A stretch of DNA of 23,962 nt from a virus, in IMG/VR virus record IMGVR_UViG_3300043418_000137, positions 1-23,962 of that record; one strand, given 5' to 3'. The notes beneath the pieces were generated by a model. It had not been told where the DNA came from. It searched no databases and worked only from the letters and a program-made list of their open reading frames with translations. This document shows positions 5,657-23,962 of the stretch, piece by piece (position 1 is the stretch's first letter; each line of letters starts with the position of its first letter). Both the position numbers and the translations under genes were made by a program.

Positions 5657-5958
5657 TGGCAAACCAAGATTTAGCCCTTTACGGAAACGATTTATTAATC
5701 CAAAACGGGGATTTGGCCATAATGGAATCAGATACCCAGCACATCGCTGATACGATAAACGCTTTCGCGGGGTGGTGGAAACAATACCCGCAAGACGGAA
5801 TCGGCATTTTTCAATATTTGAATTCAGCCGGCCAAGAGCAGGCGCTGAAACGTCAAATTATGATACAACTTACGGCCGACGGTTATCAAGTGGCAAACCC
5901 TGAAGTTTCGGTAAACGCAGCCGGCCAAATGACCATAAATCCAAATGCCACAGTATGA
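5656..5958 (+). CDS. Baseplate protein, Mu gp46 / gp25-like
   Basis: A 100-residue protein starting with an Asp-Leu-Ala-Leu/Asn-Asp-Leu-Leu-Ile/Asn-Gly-Asp-Leu-Ala beta-hairpin pattern. A helix with an aromatic Trp-Trp pair and an Asp-Gly-Ile-Gly turn follow. That pattern is typical of the small wedge proteins in the Mu gp46, P2 gpW and T4 gp25 group, which join the baseplate to the sheath. It follows the spike gene, as in Mu. Start and end both overlap neighbours (TAATG, ATGA). No separate baseplate J (Mu gp47) gene follows, which is unusual. Confidence 0.62.
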   Translation: MANQDLALYGNDLLIQNGDLAIMESDTQHIADTINAFAGWWKQYPQDGIGIFQYLNSAGQEQALKRQIMIQLTADGYQVANPEVSVNAAGQMTINPNATV

Positions 5959-6533
5959 CGAACTACACCGCAATAGCAGGACAAAGCATTTACGACGTAT
6001 GTTTGCAAACGTACGGTTCGCTAGATTTTTTATACAAATTAATGCAAGACAACGCAATCGCCGGCCTTAACGTCGATGTTTTAAGCGGTCAAAAATTTGT
6101 TTGGGATGAAACGCTGGTAGTCAATCAGCAATTAAATTCGGCCTTTGCCGCAAGTGGTATAAATTATGCGACTTCTTCTTCTACTCTTGGCAGCGTTTTC
6201 TTTGTGGAAACAATCCAAGGCGGGCAAATCATTCAGCCTAACCCAACCCCAACCGGCGGAAGCGGTGGCGGAGGCGGTGGCGCTTATGCTATTACTTTGG
6301 GGACTTCATTTACTAGCAACGTAGACAACGCGACGGTAATTACACCGCTTGATATTAACGGAAACACATTGGTAGGCGTTGACATTGTTCAAATTGAAAA
6401 GGAAACTAAACCGATGGTTGCGGCCGATTATAGCTGGAATAAAGCGACGGGCGTTCTTACATTATTAAACGGCAATACCTGCGACCAAGGGATGACGTTA
6501 TTTATTTTATATTCGAAAATTATCACGGCCTAA
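5955..6533 (+). CDS. LysM-like tail protein with Gly-rich linker
   Basis: A 192-residue protein. Residues 1-55 follow a LysM-like pattern (Tyr-Thr...Gly-Gln-Ser-Ile-Tyr-Asp...Tyr-Gly...Leu...Gly-Gln-x-Phe), as in tail proteins of the Mu gp43/T4 gp53 type. About residues 95-108 are a Pro/Gly linker with several consecutive Gly. The C-terminal part (110-192) is beta-rich and could be a small binding or oligomerisation domain that carries the fibre. It lies just before the tail fibre gene, with a TAATG junction, so a role as the baseplate-fibre adaptor is inferred. No exact family was recognised. Confidence 0.55.
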   Translation: MTNYTAIAGQSIYDVCLQTYGSLDFLYKLMQDNAIAGLNVDVLSGQKFVWDETLVVNQQLNSAFAASGINYATSSSTLGSVFFVETIQGGQIIQPNPTPTGGSGGGGGGAYAITLGTSFTSNVDNATVITPLDINGNTLVGVDIVQIEKETKPMVAADYSWNKATGVLTLLNGNTCDQGMTLFILYSKIITA

Positions 6534-9500
6534 TGAAAAAGATATTTTTATTTCTTGTAATTTTTGCACTATCATTCGGGGCTAAAGCGCAAAGCTGGAC
6601 GCCTATTTTTGGTAAACAACGCTTCGCTTCAGGGCTTGGTATTCCGACAAAAGATTCAACGTATTTCGCGGGTTCTGCGGATTCTTCGCTTATTTATATA
6701 AACCCAAAAGACGCGGGTTTATATTACAAATATAAAGGCTATCACAAAAAAGTAGGCACGGGGACGGTTTCTTCGGTTGGGCTTACTATGCCTTCGGCTT
6801 TTAGCGTTTCGGGTTCGCCTATTACAAACAACGGCTCGTTTATTGTTACCAGTGCCGGTTCAATTACGCAATACATTCGGGGCGATGGTTCGCTAGCTAC
6901 ATTAAACACGGCGGCAGTTCCCGAATCAGGAAACCTTTATTACACAGATGCGCGCGCAAGGGCAGCAATAAGCGGAACTAGCCCCATAAGCGTGACTTCG
7001 GGCGTTGTTTCTATTTCTCAGTCAAGCGGTTCGACGAATGGGTATTTAAGCGCTACCGATTGGACGGTTTTTAATTCAAAACAAACGGCTTTAAATGGGA
7101 CGGGCTTTGTTAAGCAATCAGGAACGACAACAAGCTACGATAATACGACTTATTACCCCGCTTCAAACCCTAACGGTTATACATCAAATACGGGAACCGT
7201 TACAAGCGTAGCTCTAACCGCACCCTCAGCGTTTACCGTTACAGGTTCGCCCGTTACAACTTCGGGAACTTTGGCGCTAGGCGCGGCAGGTAATTCGACG
7301 CAATACATCGACGGTTCGGGATCGCTACAAACGTTTCCTACTATGCTTTCGTCTGACAATTTAATTAAGTTAGTCAGAAACCAATCGGGCGCAACAATGA
7401 CGGCCGGCACAATTGTTTACATCGATGGCGCAACAGGAAACAAACCAACAATTGCCAAAGCACTAGCGACAAGCGACGCCACATCGGCACAAACTTACGG
7501 GGCAGTTCAGGTCGATATTGCAAATAATGCGGACGGGTATATTGTTGTAATTGGTAATATTAATAATTTAAACACAAACGGGTTAACGGAAGGCGCCCAG
7601 TTATATTTATCATCAACAACGGCGGGAACCTATACAACGACAAAACAATACGCCCCAGCCCATTTAGTTTATGTGGGTATTGTATTACGCGCACACCCTA
7701 CGCAGGGAATTATAGGCGTAAAAATTCAAAACGGATACGAATTAGACGAGCTTCATAATGTGGCCGCACAAACGCCATCAAATAATGACGGTTTGTTTTA
7801 CGAATCATTGACAAGTCTTTGGAAAAATAAAAGCATTGCAACGGTTTTAGGCTATACGCCCGAGCAACCATTAACGTTTAGCGCGCCTCTTTCGCGTTCA
7901 GTAAATACGGTTTCAATTCCTGCGGCGACAAGTTCGGCAAACGGTTATTTAAGTTCTACGGATTGGACTACATTTAACGGCAAACAAAACGCAATTACCT
8001 TAACAACAACGGGGTCAAGCGGATCGGCTACATTCATTTCAAATACGCTAAATGTGCCAACTTACACGCTTGCAGGCTTAGGCGGTCAGCCACAATTAAA
8101 CGGCACCGGTTTTGTAAAGGCCAGCGGAACGACAATAAGCTATGATAATAGCACATATTTAACAACAAGCTCGGCGTCTTCTACTTATGTACCTTACACG
8201 GGTGCAACCCAAGGCGTAAATATAGGCACAAATATGTACACAGGTGGTTATGCCGTTTTAAACGGTTCAGGCACAAATCAGGCCGGTGTATTAAGTTTAT
8301 TCAAAGGAACTAGCAGAGCAGTCCAAGGTAATGGATACACAAATTTATATGCCGAAGACGGCAAAGTAGGGTTTAACGATTGGATTACAGGTAACGTAAG
8401 AACATTTGAATTTTCACTGGCAAGTTTGACAAGTGGAACGACTCGCGTTTATACTTTACCTGATGCAAGTGGAACTATTGCTTTAACAAGCGGATTGACG
8501 GGCTTTGTTTCGGGTTCCGGTACAAGCGGACAGGTTCCTTTATTTAATGGAACGCAAAGCGTAACAAATAGCCAAATTTATGACAACGGTAATACCGTTT
8601 CAATTGGTAATTCAGTTACATCGCCGAATAAATTGGTTTCGTTTTCAACAAACGCCAGCGGGTTTGCGATTTTAGGTAGCGGTTCAGGTGGTGCCGGTGG
8701 TGTTTACGCCGCAGTTACTTCCGGTACGGGAAATATGTTTCAGGGTAGCACTTCAAACGGCGGGTATTTTATTTCTGACAACGCTGGAAATACTTACATT
8801 TCGGGAAAAGTCGGCATAGGAACTTTTAGTTCTTCGTCTTATAATTTGAACGTAGTCGGTACGGGTTATTTTTCAAACAATTTAACTGCTTCTCAACTTT
8901 TTGCAGGAAGTTCTACTCACGGATATTTAAACTTAACTGCGGCAAATACAGGAGGAAACGAAGCTGGAATATTTTTTGCTATTAATGGCAATAAATGGGA
9001 GCAATATACGGCAGCAAATGATTTGTCAATGAACTGGTATAGTTACGCATTGTCTTCAGTCGCTATGAAAATAAATCCTAGCGGAAACTTAAGCATAGGA
9101 AGTAATACAGACGCAGGCTTCAAACTTGATGTTAATGGTACGGGAAGGTTTAGTGATAGAGTAACTGCAAATGGATTTTCAGCAATAGGCACAAATTCAG
9201 GGTTTAGTATATTCCGAAGAGATAATAATGCTTATGCAGGTGGATGGTATTCTCCTTCAGGAAGTATTTTATTGGACTTAGCTGGATTAGGCACTGCTAT
9301 GACTATCGCTACCTCCACAGGCGCAGCCACGTTTTCGAGTAGTGTAACGGCAACGAGTTTATTTGTAAATGCTGGAACTGGCTCTAATTTAAGAGTAATA
9401 TCAGGAGGAACAAACATTTTAAATGTTGCTAATTATAGTGTAGCAGATGGCTTCAGAGAGTTTTTATTAGCCGGTAGTGAATTATCTTTTTATAGCGGTA

Positions 9501-10543
9501 CTGCTGGAGCTGGTAGTTTATCCGAACGTATGCGAATCACTTCCTCTGGCAACGTAGGCATCGGAACGACGGCGCCAGCGGGCGGAATTTCAGGAACTGA
9601 AGTAGCTTTAGAAATATCAAACCCGAATGTTGGCGTTTTGGCTTTAACATCTTTAGCAGCATCAGGAAGAAAATATCAAATTTATTCTTCAAATGATGGT
9701 TCCTTGTATTTTAGAGATGGAACAACAGGAAACCAAAGATTTAATATTCAATATACGGGAAATGTAGGTATTGGAACAACTGCGCCAACTGGGCAATTAT
9801 CTATTAAAAATCAAATAAGTAACGGGGCAAATCCTACAACATCTTATGCTGCTACAAACGGAGTAGATGGGCAAAATTTCTTTAATGGATATTATGCTAG
9901 TAATTCTGATGGGGCTGGAACTTATCCAAGATATTTTGACATTGTTTCTATTGGGTCTCCTGATGGAACAAACGGAAGTAGTAATATTAGGTTTTTTACT
10001 AATGGAATAGCTAATAATTCTGCGGCAATTGAACGCGTTCGAATTACTGGAGGAGGAACACTAGCAATTAATGGTAGTCAAGATGTTAATAATGGTTTTT
10101 TGGATAAAATATCAATAGGTCATTTAAGTGGGAGTTACGGGTGGATTCAAACTTGGAATGCTACCGCTTTATATCTTAATAAAGTAGGGAATGCCGTTTA
10201 TGCGGGAACCCAAAGAATTGATAACAATTCGGACGCTAGAATAAAAAATAATGTTCAAAAAATCGAAAATGCCTTAAATGTAGTATTGTCTTTAAATGGC
10301 AAAAAATATAATATGCTAGATGAAGATAATATTTTAAGATACGGATTTATTGCCCAAGAAGTAGAACCATATTTAAAAGATTTTGTTACTCATAGTGATA
10401 GAAAATTTGAAAAAGGAAATTTAAAAATAGAAAATTTATTAACGCTTGAAAATTCAGGATCAGCCTGGGCGGCTTTATTAGTTGAAGCAATAAAAGAACT
10501 TAATCAAAAAATAACTAACTTAGAAGCACAAATCAAACAATAA
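6533..10543 (+). CDS. Tail fibre with Sec signal peptide and C-terminal S74 self-cleaving chaperone
   Basis: A 1336-residue fibre. Residues 1-19 form a textbook Sec signal peptide (two Lys, hydrophobic core, Ala-Lys-Ala then Gln20). About residues 75-260 and 440-560 hold repeated beta modules: Gly-Thr-Val-(S/T)-Ser-Val, Thr-Asp-Trp-Thr, and Leu-Asn-Gly-Thr-Gly-Phe-Val-Lys. The last third has Asn-Val-Gly-Ile-Gly-Thr repeats. The C-terminal ~104 residues are an intramolecular chaperone of the S74 type: S1233-D-A-R-I-K1238 matches the Ser/Lys pair, five residues apart, that cuts endosialidase-type fibres, and the end is a coiled coil. The chaperone guides trimerisation and is then released. A signal peptide on a virion fibre is unexpected. 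The 3' part is visibly more AT-rich than the 5' part. Confidence 0.85.
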   Translation: MKKIFLFLVIFALSFGAKAQSWTPIFGKQRFASGLGIPTKDSTYFAGSADSSLIYINPKDAGLYYKYKGYHKKVGTGTVSSVGLTMPSAFSVSGSPITNNGSFIVTSAGSITQYIRGDGSLATLNTAAVPESGNLYYTDARARAAISGTSPISVTSGVVSISQSSGSTNGYLSATDWTVFNSKQTALNGTGFVKQSGTTTSYDNTTYYPASNPNGYTSNTGTVTSVALTAPSAFTVTGSPVTTSGTLALGAAGNSTQYIDGSGSLQTFPTMLSSDNLIKLVRNQSGATMTAGTIVYIDGATGNKPTIAKALATSDATSAQTYGAVQVDIANNADGYIVVIGNINNLNTNGLTEGAQLYLSSTTAGTYTTTKQYAPAHLVYVGIVLRAHPTQGIIGVKIQNGYELDELHNVAAQTPSNNDGLFYESLTSLWKNKSIATVLGYTPEQPLTFSAPLSRSVNTVSIPAATSSANGYLSSTDWTTFNGKQNAITLTTTGSSGSATFISNTLNVPTYTLAGLGGQPQLNGTGFVKASGTTISYDNSTYLTTSSASSTYVPYTGATQGVNIGTNMYTGGYAVLNGSGTNQAGVLSLFKGTSRAVQGNGYTNLYAEDGKVGFNDWITGNVRTFEFSLASLTSGTTRVYTLPDASGTIALTSGLTGFVSGSGTSGQVPLFNGTQSVTNSQIYDNGNTVSIGNSVTSPNKLVSFSTNASGFAILGSGSGGAGGVYAAVTSGTGNMFQGSTSNGGYFISDNAGNTYISGKVGIGTFSSSSYNLNVVGTGYFSNNLTASQLFAGSSTHGYLNLTAANTGGNEAGIFFAINGNKWEQYTAANDLSMNWYSYALSSVAMKINPSGNLSIGSNTDAGFKLDVNGTGRFSDRVTANGFSAIGTNSGFSIFRRDNNAYAGGWYSPSGSILLDLAGLGTAMTIATSTGAATFSSSVTATSLFVNAGTGSNLRVISGGTNILNVANYSVADGFREFLLAGSELSFYSGTAGAGSLSERMRITSSGNVGIGTTAPAGGISGTEVALEISNPNVGVLALTSLAASGRKYQIYSSNDGSLYFRDGTTGNQRFNIQYTGNVGIGTTAPTGQLSIKNQISNGANPTTSYAATNGVDGQNFFNGYYASNSDGAGTYPRYFDIVSIGSPDGTNGSSNIRFFTNGIANNSAAIERVRITGGGTLAINGSQDVNNGFLDKISIGHLSGSYGWIQTWNATALYLNKVGNAVYAGTQRIDNNSDARIKNNVQKIENALNVVLSLNGKKYNMLDEDNILRYGFIAQEVEPYLKDFVTHSDRKFEKGNLKIENLLTLENSGSAWAALLVEAIKELNQKITNLEAQIKQ

Positions 10544-10549
10544 TCCAAA

Positions 10550-10807
10550 ATGAAAAAAGCATTTTTAATCGTTTCCCTTTTTGCTTTATTAGCTTTCACG
10601 GCTGAAAAATTTGTAATTGTTAAATTTACGGAGCCGGAAATTCAATACCACTGGCAATCAATGAACCAAATAAAGGCCATTGTAGACCAGTCAAACCTGC
10701 CTCACAATCAAGCCGTATTTGTGATAAAATCACTTGATTCGCTACAAAAAAGCATTCAAATAAACGCCAAAATTGATTCGACAACATTAAAACAAACAAA
10801 AAAATAA
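10550..10807 (+). CDS. Small secreted protein downstream of the tail fibre, unknown function
   Basis: An 85-residue protein with an N-terminal signal-like segment (two Lys, then a 15-residue hydrophobic stretch ending in Ala-Phe-Thr-Ala). The rest is short and largely helical, with many Gln and Lys. It starts six bases after the fibre stop and its stop overlaps the next start (TAATG), so it is part of the fibre operon. No family was recognised. Possible roles are a periplasmic chaperone for the exported fibre or a factor that changes the infected cell's surface; both are speculation. Confidence 0.6.
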   Translation: MKKAFLIVSLFALLAFTAEKFVIVKFTEPEIQYHWQSMNQIKAIVDQSNLPHNQAVFVIKSLDSLQKSIQINAKIDSTTLKQTKK

Positions 10808-11196
10808 TGAAAAAAGTATTATTTATTTTACTTGCCTTGTTAGCGTTTAACGCAAAGGCGCAATTTGCCGGAAGCGGTCAAAAGGTATATTCTAAAGCGT
10901 CAGGCGATTCTATTTTAGTTCCTGCGGGAGCTATTGAAATCCTGCCTGTAATTGCTAACGCTAAAGGCGATACGGCAATTTCGTTAACGTGGCGCGCGTT
11001 GGATGTTAGACGTGTTGATACAACGGCGGGTTGTAACACTTACGTCGTTTTATTTGACAAAAAAGGCGGTTTTGTGGCCGATTTTAATCAGCCTATTCCC
11101 GCTTCGGTTGTTAACGTATGGGGCGTAGATCCGTGGCCAATTGATGACTACATCTTCCAAAAAAACCCACGCTTTAAACGCGTAATTAAAAAATAA
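10807..11196 (+). CDS. Small secreted protein, unknown function
   Basis: A 129-residue protein with a clear signal peptide (M1-K2-K3, Leu-rich core, Ala-Lys-Ala before Gln19, as in the fibre). The mature part is beta-rich with one Cys and a C-terminal Pro/Trp segment (Val-Trp-Gly-Val-Asp-Pro-Trp-Pro). The signal peptide is nearly the same type as that of the fibre gene, suggesting the three genes are exported together. No family was recognised. The TAATG junction with the gene before implies coupled translation. Confidence 0.6.
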   Translation: MKKVLFILLALLAFNAKAQFAGSGQKVYSKASGDSILVPAGAIEILPVIANAKGDTAISLTWRALDVRRVDTTAGCNTYVVLFDKKGGFVADFNQPIPASVVNVWGVDPWPIDDYIFQKNPRFKRVIKK

Positions 11197-11225: not shown

Positions 11226-11711
11226 ATGAAAGGTATTTTATCCGTCGCACTATTATCACTAATTAACGTGAAACTAAATTTTTTACCCACAGGCACGTTG
11301 ATGGTTGCGATGGGCGCTTGTATTACCTTAGATTTTTTTACGGGGGTAATAAAGGCCACATTTTTACACGAAGCGCGAACTTCGGAAGGGTACAGGAAGA
11401 CGGTGATTAAATTTATGCAATACGGCGGGGCGGTATGCGTATCAATGGTAATGAAATATTTAATGGTAATGAAGGGAGATGCAGACTTTGCACTATTCGT
11501 GCCGTTTTTGGATTACTTAAATAATGGGCTTTTGTTCTTTATCATATTTATTGAAGTGACTTCAATTTTAGAAAATATGTACGCAATAGACCGCGATAGT
11601 CCTTTTGCCCATTACATTATTAAGCCCCTTTTGAAATTGATGACTTTTGCAATAAAGAATAATTCATTTGTGGAGGCATCAAAGAAAGTCGGAAAGACCG
11701 ACGATAATTAA
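11226..11711 (+). CDS. Holin (phage holin family 4-like)
   Basis: A 161-residue membrane protein with hydrophobic segments at about 22-44, 65-83 and 87-113. It carries an Asp-Phe-Phe-Thr-Gly motif (36-40) and a Glu/Ser-Ile-Leu-Glu-Asn segment (about 110-117), both typical of the toxin-secretion/phage lysis holin family 4. Holins form lesions in the inner membrane that let the endolysin out and set the time of lysis. It is the first gene of the lysis cassette, preceded by a C-rich leader (11206-11216) and followed by a small membrane protein. Confidence 0.82.
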   Translation: MKGILSVALLSLINVKLNFLPTGTLMVAMGACITLDFFTGVIKATFLHEARTSEGYRKTVIKFMQYGGAVCVSMVMKYLMVMKGDADFALFVPFLDYLNNGLLFFIIFIEVTSILENMYAIDRDSPFAHYIIKPLLKLMTFAIKNNSFVEASKKVGKTDDN

Positions 11712-11922: not shown

Positions 11923-12534
11923 ATGAAAACTATTTACAACATCATTCTTTTGGCGCTGACGGCTTTATTTTTACTCGCAGGGTGCAACTATCAATCGCGG
12001 GTAAACAAAGCCAAACAAGTGGTATTAATGGACGCACAGGCGCGCCACGAAATATTCTTGCGCGAGTTGGAATTATACCCGTGTTCAAACGATAGCATAG
12101 TTCAAACTTTTTCAGGCCAAATTGATTCGGTAACGCTGGCCGAATACCTTAGTAATTTTAAAGCGCACGTTTTGGCTAACAAAGTAAGCCTTGATACGTT
12201 GCCAAAAATACTAAAGGATGCCTACGAATTAGGCTACAAAGACGCGAGCGACAAATACTTAGCGGTAAAGGTTCCTAAATGCAACCCGACGTTTGTAAAA
12301 GTAACGGTAAAAGATAAGCAAAAGGAAAAAATACTAGGAGATTCGCTTGTTGCTAGAAATGCAACGATAGGCGCGCGCGATGCTGAAATCTTCGTTTTAA
12401 ACAACGAAATTGATCAAATTCGGGAAGATGCAAAGGCGGCATCAAATAAATGGGTGTGGCGCTTTATTTTGGCCGTTGTGATAGGGCTTATTTCAAACGC
12501 GGCTTGGGCGTATTTTAAAATATTCAAATTATGA
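11923..12534 (+). CDS. Candidate unimolecular spanin (lipoprotein with C-terminal membrane segment)
   Basis: A 203-residue protein. Residues 1-20 are a lipoprotein signal with a Leu-Ala-Gly-Cys lipobox (C21), so the mature N-terminus should be lipid-anchored to a membrane, likely the outer one. A helical, charged middle region follows. Near the C-terminus a Trp-rich segment at about 177-197 looks like an inner-membrane anchor, followed by Lys-Ile-Phe-Lys-Leu. Outer-membrane lipid at one end and inner-membrane helix at the other is the layout of unimolecular spanins (T1 gp11 type), which fuse the two membranes at the last step of lysis. Position between holin and endolysin supports this. An Rz-like protein is the alternative. 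Confidence 0.68.
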   Translation: MKTIYNIILLALTALFLLAGCNYQSRVNKAKQVVLMDAQARHEIFLRELELYPCSNDSIVQTFSGQIDSVTLAEYLSNFKAHVLANKVSLDTLPKILKDAYELGYKDASDKYLAVKVPKCNPTFVKVTVKDKQKEKILGDSLVARNATIGARDAEIFVLNNEIDQIREDAKAASNKWVWRFILAVVIGLISNAAWAYFKIFKL

Positions 12535-19471: not shown

Positions 19472-20162
19472 GGGAAACGCTCACGCCATAATTGCCGCAC
19501 AAAGCGCCGAAAGTTTACGTACACGGGACGAAAACGACATTAAACAGGTATTGCGTTACGCAATGGTTTTAGTCGGCTTACGTGGCAACAATTTTCCGAC
19601 TGACGAAGAAAAATTTGTTTTGTTAAACTTTGTTCGAAACAATTTTGGAAACCAAACGCCCGAAGAAATAAAAATTGCGTTTGATTACGCGGTTGCGGGG
19701 AAGCTGGAAGTTGATGCGAAATGTTACGAATCATTTTCGTGCGAATATTTCGGCCGAATTATGAAGGCTTACATTGAATTTGCAAGGCTTGAAACTAAAA
19801 ACGTTGTAAAGGCCGTAGAATTACCAAAGCCAGCGCCCAGCGCCGAAGAAATTAAGGCAATGGTTATAAAATCAGCAAATATGTACATAGCTGAAATGAT
19901 CCGTTGCAAAGAAGCCAAAATCGAAATGAATTGGATTGCCGGTGGCCTTTCTTATTTGTACGATTATTTAGTTGACTTCAAAATTTGGGATTGCCCTGAA
20001 GCGGTGCGCGAAGAAATACGGTTTAGAATCAATCCAAATTGGAAACAAAACCCGCGGGAAAAAATGTTTGTTGCAAGTTGCAAGGCGGAGGCATACAAAC
20101 GGTTTATTTCTGATTTGGTAGAAATGGGAATGAGTTTAAACGAAAACGGCGAAATTGTATGA
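19401..20162 (+). CDS. Probable replication-module protein, unknown family
   Basis: A 253-residue protein, mostly helical, whose start lies 71 bases inside the preceding replication gene in another frame. The start is supported by a CCTAAACCCC motif (19385-19394) six bases upstream. Residues about 60-125 (Gly-Asn-Asn-Phe-Pro-Thr-Asp-Glu-Glu-Lys-Phe...Ser-Phe-Ser-Cys-Glu-Tyr-Phe-Gly-Arg-Ile) form a helical domain of unknown family, followed by a Pro-rich hinge (about 140-148). A helicase-loader-like role is possible by position; there is no Walker motif. Confidence 0.62.
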   Translation: MEISTTNKNSELAPQEWKPREISKGNAHAIIAAQSAESLRTRDENDIKQVLRYAMVLVGLRGNNFPTDEEKFVLLNFVRNNFGNQTPEEIKIAFDYAVAGKLEVDAKCYESFSCEYFGRIMKAYIEFARLETKNVVKAVELPKPAPSAEEIKAMVIKSANMYIAEMIRCKEAKIEMNWIAGGLSYLYDYLVDFKIWDCPEAVREEIRFRINPNWKQNPREKMFVASCKAEAYKRFISDLVEMGMSLNENGEIV

Positions 20163-20389
20163 GAACTAAATTAATTTTAAGCGCGTTTTTTTTGATGGGA
20201 TGCGCATTTGTATGTCTTTCTTTTATTATGGCCAAGAAGCCAAAGCAAAGCGGCAAAATCAAAACGTTACAAAATGAAATAGACAACGGCGACGCGTTTA
20301 TGATGGACACGTTTGAGCCAATTGAAGATTTTGAAATGGTTTATTTTGATGAAAACAGGGGATTGGTTCAAATTAAAACAAAACGATAA
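20159..20389 (+). CDS. Small membrane-anchored protein
   Basis: A 76-residue protein with an N-terminal hydrophobic segment (about 5-24, including Met-Gly-Cys, which could be a weak lipobox). A basic patch (Lys-Lys-Pro-Lys-Gln) and an acidic helical tail follow. ATGA overlap with the gene before and TAATG with the next place it in the same operon. No family was recognised; lipoprotein and single-pass membrane protein both fit. Confidence 0.55.
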   Translation: MRTKLILSAFFLMGCAFVCLSFIMAKKPKQSGKIKTLQNEIDNGDAFMMDTFEPIEDFEMVYFDENRGLVQIKTKR

Positions 20390-23550: not shown

Positions 23551-23962
23551 ATGTCCGAACAATTAACAATCAAAATTGAAAAAGGCAAAGTATTTAATTG
23601 TTTGCATTGTAAAAACGATTTTAAATCAATAAAGTCGTGTAAAAATCGAACGCCTAAATATTGCAGTAAAAAATGTTATTCAGAAAATTTAAAAAAATAT
23701 AAAATTTGCAATTGTTGTAAAATTTCATTTGCTAATTGGGCAAATGACAAATATTGTTCATTAAAATGTAAAAACGATTCACGAAAAGGAATAACATTTA
23801 GTGAAGTTTGGAAAAATAACATAAGCGAAGCACGCAAAAATAGCATTAAATGCAAAGGAGAAAATCTTTACAATTGGAAAGGAGGATTGTTGACTTTAAA
23901 ATTAAGAGCTAAAGGATATTTTTATAAAAGAAAGAGAAGTTTAAAATTAGATTTTAATCAAG
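23551..23962 (+). CDS. Zinc-finger HNH-type endonuclease, cut by window end
   Basis: At least 137 residues, open at the right edge. Two similar zinc knuckles: C17-x2-C20 with C38-x3-C42 (Tyr-Cys-Ser-Lys-Lys-Cys), and C53-x2-C56 with C69-x3-C73 (Tyr-Cys-Ser-Leu-Lys-Cys). Gly-Glu-Asn-Leu-Tyr-Asn-Trp-Lys-Gly-Gly (103-112) is the linker typically found before HNH endonuclease domains. The catalytic HNH itself lies beyond the window. The gene is very AT-rich compared with the DUF3310 gene and is probably a mobile homing-type nuclease inserted in the phage. Confidence 0.7.
   Translation, partial: MSEQLTIKIEKGKVFNCLHCKNDFKSIKSCKNRTPKYCSKKCYSENLKKYKICNCCKISFANWANDKYCSLKCKNDSRKGITFSEVWKNNISEARKNSIKCKGENLYNWKGGLLTLKLRAKGYFYKRKRSLKLDFNQ

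Follow-up and report, generated by a model that had tools for sequence, protein, structure and literature searches.

In the textbook account, tailed phages are assembled in the cytoplasm of the host. Phages also send proteins to the envelope during infection, among them the small superinfection-exclusion proteins T5 Llp and lambdoid Cor, and secreted S74 proteins are encoded by host Bacteroidota. The S74 tail fibres and tailspikes of the endosialidase family combine a C-terminal S74 domain, with its SDxRxK-type site, and a beta-rich modular body; their genes are placed in the tail operon, and tips are exchanged between close relatives.

Phage-coded proteins with Bacteroidetes-type signals that expose a Gln are known from the P. 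gingivalis phages (Nixviridae), where they come from five genes of unknown function and where signals on the major capsid proteins are also mentioned (PMC10367356). This Q-rule is a trait of signal peptidase I substrates in the Bacteroidetes, in which the exposed Gln is cyclised and the host mean is 71% (PMC5837995). Another Bacteroidota trait is the O-glycosylation of proteins outside the cytoplasm, at D-S/T when the next residue is A/I/L/V/M/T or a similar one (PMC12871550). The open-licence literature searched (tail fibre, signal peptide, Bacteroidetes, superinfection exclusion) did not describe any tail fibre with a signal.

The window analysed here, 23,962 nucleotides of an IMG/VR virus record, encodes a 1336-aa fibre (ORF 6533-10543, + strand) with an N-terminal Sec signal peptide and a C-terminal Peptidase_S74 domain. 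It shares with the endosialidase-family fibres all the properties listed above, but differs from them in its cleavable Sec signal; its 81 clustered homologues without a signal start as cytosolic proteins (e.g. MIGKKINQLAT). Like the proteins of the P. gingivalis phages it is phage-coded and exposes a Gln, whereas here the gene is fibre-like or receptor-binding-like and the pattern is family-wide. In common with the general O-glycoproteins of Bacteroidota (PMC12871550, PMC8550257), signal-bearing fibres are enriched for the motif of the published specificity, although they are viral, their glycosylation is predicted and the copy in the window has a single motif. As with T5 Llp and Cor, a phage protein would be sent to the envelope during infection, but in this case it is a large modular fibre from the tail operon. 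With moderate confidence, we read the protein as a receptor-binding fibre that is exported, loses its signal by cleavage and is added to the virion outside the cytoplasm, probably during lysis; its attachment to the virion is what we infer from the evidence below.

The fibre gene and its signal peptide

The N-terminus of the fibre ORF reads MKKIFLFLVIFALSFGAKAQSW. Residues 1-20, MKKIFLFLVIFALSFGAKAQ, are coded by 6533-6592, where the sequence-only reading had correctly located a complete Sec signal. The signal peptide itself comprises residues 1-19 (6533..6589, + strand) and has the form MKKIFLFLVIFALSFGAKA↓Q, with KK in the n-region, a hydrophobic core without charge and AKA↓Q, so that the predicted cut falls after A19, between codons 19 and 20 (6589/6590). 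Signals were called by a rule-based test written for this analysis, not by SignalP; 12 of 3786 internal Met starts were called by it, a false-positive rate of 0.3%, and it scored the fibre N-terminus as a strong SPI signal. All the features of a Sec/signal peptidase I substrate, namely n-region charge, hydrophobic core, A-x-A cut and Gln at +1, are present in the window fibre.

In the sequence TAATG, the start codon of the fibre overlaps the stop codon of the tail gene before it, and the first in-frame ATG, GTG or TTG after this start is M86. A mis-called start was ruled out by this overlap and by the lack of an alternative start before M86, and as the next in-frame start comes only there, no short form that skips the signal would have gone unnoticed. 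In the sister phage (IMGVR 3300046323_000172; alias L001, L128 or G001), seven nucleotides differ in codons 1-84 and the protein is 100% identical to the window fibre over this region; therefore, all seven differences are synonymous. An AlphaFold model of residues 1-160 was of low confidence (pLDDT 53) and was not used.

Type IX secretion of the fibre was rejected for lack of a C-terminal sorting domain, as no NCBIfam match to a T9SS sorting domain was obtained in the window fibre or in six relatives. Neither a lipobox nor a type IX sorting domain that would hold the protein on the surface is found in the fibre.

Conservation of the signal among related phages

For a survey of the family, the upstream LysM-like gene was used as the anchor, giving 68 loci. 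All 30 loci with an anchor of 180-198 aa continue with a large gene that carries a signal (called by the rule in 29 and by eye in L196), offset from the anchor by -3 to +9 nt; these loci are related and the counts not independent. The mature N-termini behind the signals include unrelated types (QSWTPI.., QNDTTRYTMVNGYG.., QTVITGKYKYTDSL.. and QSYQPISTYGYQW..). In more distant anchor clades a signal-free gene comes next, and in L219, L238, L241 and L245 such a gene is followed further on by a signal-bearing one. The same N-terminal module as in the window is also found behind a tail-tube gene (Phage_tail_2) in siphovirus-like contigs. The signal is thus not the one-off oddity that it had been taken for, but is conserved throughout a group of phages.

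Among relatives the signal is free to vary in sequence but stays of one type. A Gln stands at +1 in all 28 distinct signals, the window included, compared with 3.8% Gln among nearby residues; L254 was left out of this count, its start being uncertain. Such constancy implies that the fibre signal is cleaved by host signal peptidase I. An uncleaved signal, serving as an inner-membrane anchor or as a hydrophobic helix by which the fibre docks in the virion, would agree with the hydrophobic N-terminal helix predicted in the fibre. Nevertheless, we regard it as very unlikely, given an A-x-A↓Q-type cut in every distinct signal, a +1 Gln explained by cleavage and cyclisation (PMC5837995) and free divergence of sequence within a fixed type. 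The only role known for a Gln at +1 follows cleavage, which contradicts the anchoring role once suggested for the fibre signal.

Isolated phages were considered as a ready model and rejected. In the Winoviridae lotta8-1, FPSV-S1, Peternella_1 and fF4, the gene after the LysM gene is signal-free (the label 'structural protein' in lotta8-1 rests on sequence similarity), and the Flavobacteriaceae phages FCL-2, phi12:3 and P12024S show no tail fibre with a signal. Flavobacterium phage FCL-2 does encode a 147-aa protein (L290:45363-45806) with a Q-rule-like signal followed by VGIATTTPTETLDVNG, which presumably resembles secreted host-type fibre-like proteins.

At one locus, a second large signal-bearing gene follows the fibre (L132:14253-16268; 671 aa, with a weak match to right-handed beta-helix proteins), and behind it lies a small gene (L132:16265-16711) with a similar N-terminus. 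Several tail-adjacent proteins may be exported in some phages, as at this locus. A KINQL-type N-terminal domain, as in signal-free fibres, was sought behind the signal in the L132 and L206 fibres, and the profile test was not significant (E=4.3).

Fibre modules and O-glycosylation motifs

Behind the signal lies a conserved mature N-terminal module, residues 20-80 (6590..6772, + strand; QSWTPI..QRF..LGIPTKDST..ADSS..LYYKYKG), which alignments place, together with its signal, in about 100 viral contigs with two tail types. Residues 221-450 (7193..7882, +) form an exchangeable body segment that also occurs in signal-free phage fibres, with 60-77% identity over parts. The C-terminal end was confirmed as the self-cleaving S74 chaperone proposed from the sequence alone: PF13884 (Peptidase_S74) matches residues 1233-1285 (10229..10387, +) with E=3e-13 and 50 bits against a curated cut-off of 22, and the cleavage motif SDARIK begins at residue 1233, with the predicted cut before S1233. 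The sister-phage fibre lacks this domain and has another tip.

A search with the whole fibre returned 80 viral loci, all with cytosolic N-termini (MIGKKINQLAT.., MESKKINQLAT.., MADKRISQL..) except that of the sister phage. A search with residues 1-84 returned 44 loci, among which all 24 distinct N-terminal variants carry a signal, and a profile search returned 100 loci, of which 80 were kept. The N-terminal module had no match in isolated phages at E<=10 and was absent from the 84,980 bacterial and archaeal genomes searched; a host secreted S74 gene is therefore not a likely donor. On the evidence of these searches, the window fibre is a chimaera of an exported N-terminal module with a body and tip from the pool of signal-free phage fibres. 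The direction of recombination, as read from the same searches, is that of a phage-typical N-terminal module with its body swapped with signal-free phage fibres. This runs opposite to the idea of a 5' end borrowed from a secreted S74 protein of the host and functionless in the phage. Secreted S74 proteins in the host Bacteroidota would make such an origin conceivable, but with the module unmatched in those genomes, carried by so many viral contigs and changed only synonymously between close relatives, we give it hardly any credence.

In 23 signal-bearing fibres with bodies of their own, the motif D-S/T-A/I/L/V/M/T occurred 294 times, compared with 87 expected from shuffles (3.37x). Control motifs in the same fibres gave 1.15x with E for D, 1.0x with N for D, 1.36x when reversed, 0.35x for D-S/T-aromatic and 0.75x for D-S/T-other. 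The motif was at 1.22x in other proteins of the same phages, at 0.94x in signal-free genes at the fibre position and at 0.67x in signal-free fibres sharing the body of the window fibre. Four further signal-bearing fibres, which belong to the anchor clades of 81 aa and 216 aa and not to the first set, reached 3.89x; the ten with grafted-type bodies, the window's among them, stood at 0.65x. The split between own and grafted bodies was made after the per-protein counts had been seen, and the unsplit figure for the 33 fibres is 2.83x. Periplasmic O-glycosylation is accordingly a prediction for signal-bearing fibres as a class.

The window fibre itself holds one motif against 4.0 expected and so lacks the excess that marks an O-glycoprotein. 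The sole D[ST][AILVMT] motif of the mature fibre, D41-S42-T43 (6653..6661, +), lies inside the conserved module, in which D41 is invariant; this fits a recent graft of the body from the cytosolic pool. The body does look like such a graft, without the motif and 60-77% identical over parts to signal-free fibres. Being nearly motif-free like cytosolic fibres, it may still work if made in the cytoplasm, as dual localisation would have it: the signal is used, part of the product is exported for a second purpose and the virion takes a cytoplasmic pool. However, there is no alternative start before M86, and a strong signal with Gln at +1 is kept in all 28 distinct cases, which makes dual localisation improbable in our judgement.

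Tail context and proposed assembly of the virion

Genes upstream of the window fibre match baseplate hub families, and the fibre is placed after hub, spike-like, gp25-like and LysM-like genes. The sister phage has recognisable sheath, tape-measure and baseplate-hub genes, which indicates a contractile tail. The hosts are probably Bacteroidota, as one contig with the anchor gene belongs to a Chitinophagaceae MAG.

Between the window and the sister phage, structural genes are 93-100% identical over their full length, whereas the fibre is 75% identical over 76%, with the tip replaced and no S74. Two other members, G002 and G003, share 47-87% identity in their structural genes but have unrelated signal-bearing fibres. 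Tips elsewhere are S74 (L118) or resemble a depolymerase C-terminal domain, below the cut-off. By this pattern of divergence, the fibre gene looks like one evolving as a receptor-binding protein.

The main rival to a virion fibre is a secreted, non-virion adhesin that masks receptors (superinfection exclusion), keeps progeny off debris or acts as a decoy, while another protein, for example the product of a 256-aa tail gene near the wedge genes, binds the receptor. A cleavable signal, the enrichment of O-glycosylation motifs and the presence of the same envelope/lysis cassette after the fibre in two tail lineages would all suit an adhesin. Against it, a reading of the near-complete contractile relatives turned up no second fibre candidate that is long or evolves fast: G002 and G003 share 61% identity along the entire 256-aa gene, yet their fibres are unrelated. 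The translational overlap of the fibre gene with a tail gene, its linkage to a signal-free tail protein that has a docking-type domain and the lack of a type IX sorting domain or lipobox for surface retention also speak against the adhesin, and we consider it unlikely, though it is the rival to be taken most seriously. Export of the fibre is well supported by the Q-rule, the O-glycosylation motif and the conservation of the signal, so this half of the earlier proposal of an exported, receptor-blocking protein stands; the blocking purpose seems less probable, for the gene has the character of a receptor-binding protein of the phage itself.

Directly upstream of the fibre lies the LysM-like tail or baseplate gene (5955..6533, +; 192 aa, by alignment). 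The last ~85 aa of its product (about 6270-6530, +) form a separate C-terminal domain, which in hhalign matched the last ~85 aa of the siphovirus-like tail-tube protein (96.3%, E 1.8e-9, 75 columns), with 12 control comparisons all below 1%; the tail-tube gene also directly precedes a signal-bearing fibre. Where the next gene bears a signal, the domain is present in 32 of the 38 loci, against 0 of 26 where it does not, the loci being related and the counts not independent. This makes it a candidate dock for the fibre. As the upstream proteins with this domain are signal-free, their contact with an exported fibre would have to wait until the envelope has opened, and from this we infer assembly at lysis.

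Several steps of the favoured reading, an exported receptor-binding fibre, have support in the sequence. The gene belongs to the late tail operon and is expressed through its overlap with the tail gene before it. The host-type Sec signal of its product is expected to be cut by host signal peptidase I, and the Gln20 exposed in this way should form pyroglutamate by cyclisation. Where their bodies are undisturbed, such fibres carry many periplasmic O-glycosylation motifs. Folding and trimerisation would take place in the periplasm, where S74 would cut itself off. Holin, endolysin and spanin would then open the cell, and the fibre would meet particles that had left the cytoplasm fibre-less, its residues 20-80 docking at the C-terminal end of the LysM-like protein, on the separate domain there, and so completing the virion. 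Points that weigh against this reading are the single O-glycosylation motif of the window fibre, the signal-free gene at this position in the isolated Winoviridae, the three isolated Flavobacteriaceae phages in which no such fibre was seen, and the recurrence of the module with an envelope/lysis cassette on two tail types, for which a secreted protein outside the virion would account equally well.

The N-terminal module is found on two unrelated tail types, each with an envelope/lysis cassette. In the window, this cassette includes an 85-aa protein (10550..10807, +) with a hydrophobic N-terminus, in which the rule-based test called no cleavable signal. It is followed by a 129-aa protein (10807..11196, +) with a Q-rule signal peptide (MKKVLFILLALLAFNAKA↓Q), whose homologues lie behind the signal-bearing fibre in either tail lineage; these share a GCNTYVV motif, and in many the N-terminal hydrophobic stretch is weaker. 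Next come a holin (11226..11711, +; Phage_holin_4_1, PF05105, E=1e-10) and a lipoprotein of spanin-like position and shape (11923..12534, +; lipobox at C21, homologues at the same place). A 177-aa protein among the downstream genes had no Pfam match.

Nine relatives have a signal on the product of a 121-144 aa gene that lies between capsid and sheath genes, e.g. MKNLIALFAFIFAFVAVNA↓QSTSPRFGT. It is signal-free in four others tested alike (MSTSARFT.., MSTTARYP.., MSTISRFP.. and MPTARITP..) and in the sister phage (MPNSFRF..). In Foldseek, the AlphaFold model of the protein (pLDDT 80) was related to phage tail-fibre proteins and, weakly, to tailspikes. The product is a candidate for a second exported virion-associated protein. 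In L278-L286, the signal is added exactly ahead of a shared STSPRF-type start.

On a wider scale, we propose tentatively, and with less assurance than for the window fibre, that a large group of Bacteroidota phages may finish its virions outside the cytoplasm, by means of a Sec-exported fibre bearing pyroglutamate, O-glycosylated in the periplasm with host sugars and added at lysis, and in some relatives also of the capsid-gene-adjacent protein. If so, folding of the fibre, disulphide formation, glycosylation and attachment would all occur in another compartment. A virion adhesin could then bear the host's own glycan, affecting host recognition and the immune view of gut phages, and cytosolic expression of such fibres in laboratory work would yield the wrong product. 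For annotation, a Q-rule signal in the tail operon of a Bacteroidota phage would mark a candidate receptor-binding protein.

Other signal-like N-termini were observed in these genomes. The capsid-like proteins of lotta8-1 (L258:2197-3279) and FPSV-S1 (L259:4125-5222) start with a signal-like hydrophobic stretch, which in lotta8-1 reads FAFILGILFASPAFA. Among the replication-side genes of the window, a 76-aa protein (20159-20389) has a lipobox-like N-terminus. A Cys-rich, open-ended ORF at 23551-23961 of the window has, by eye, the look of an HNH-type homing nuclease.
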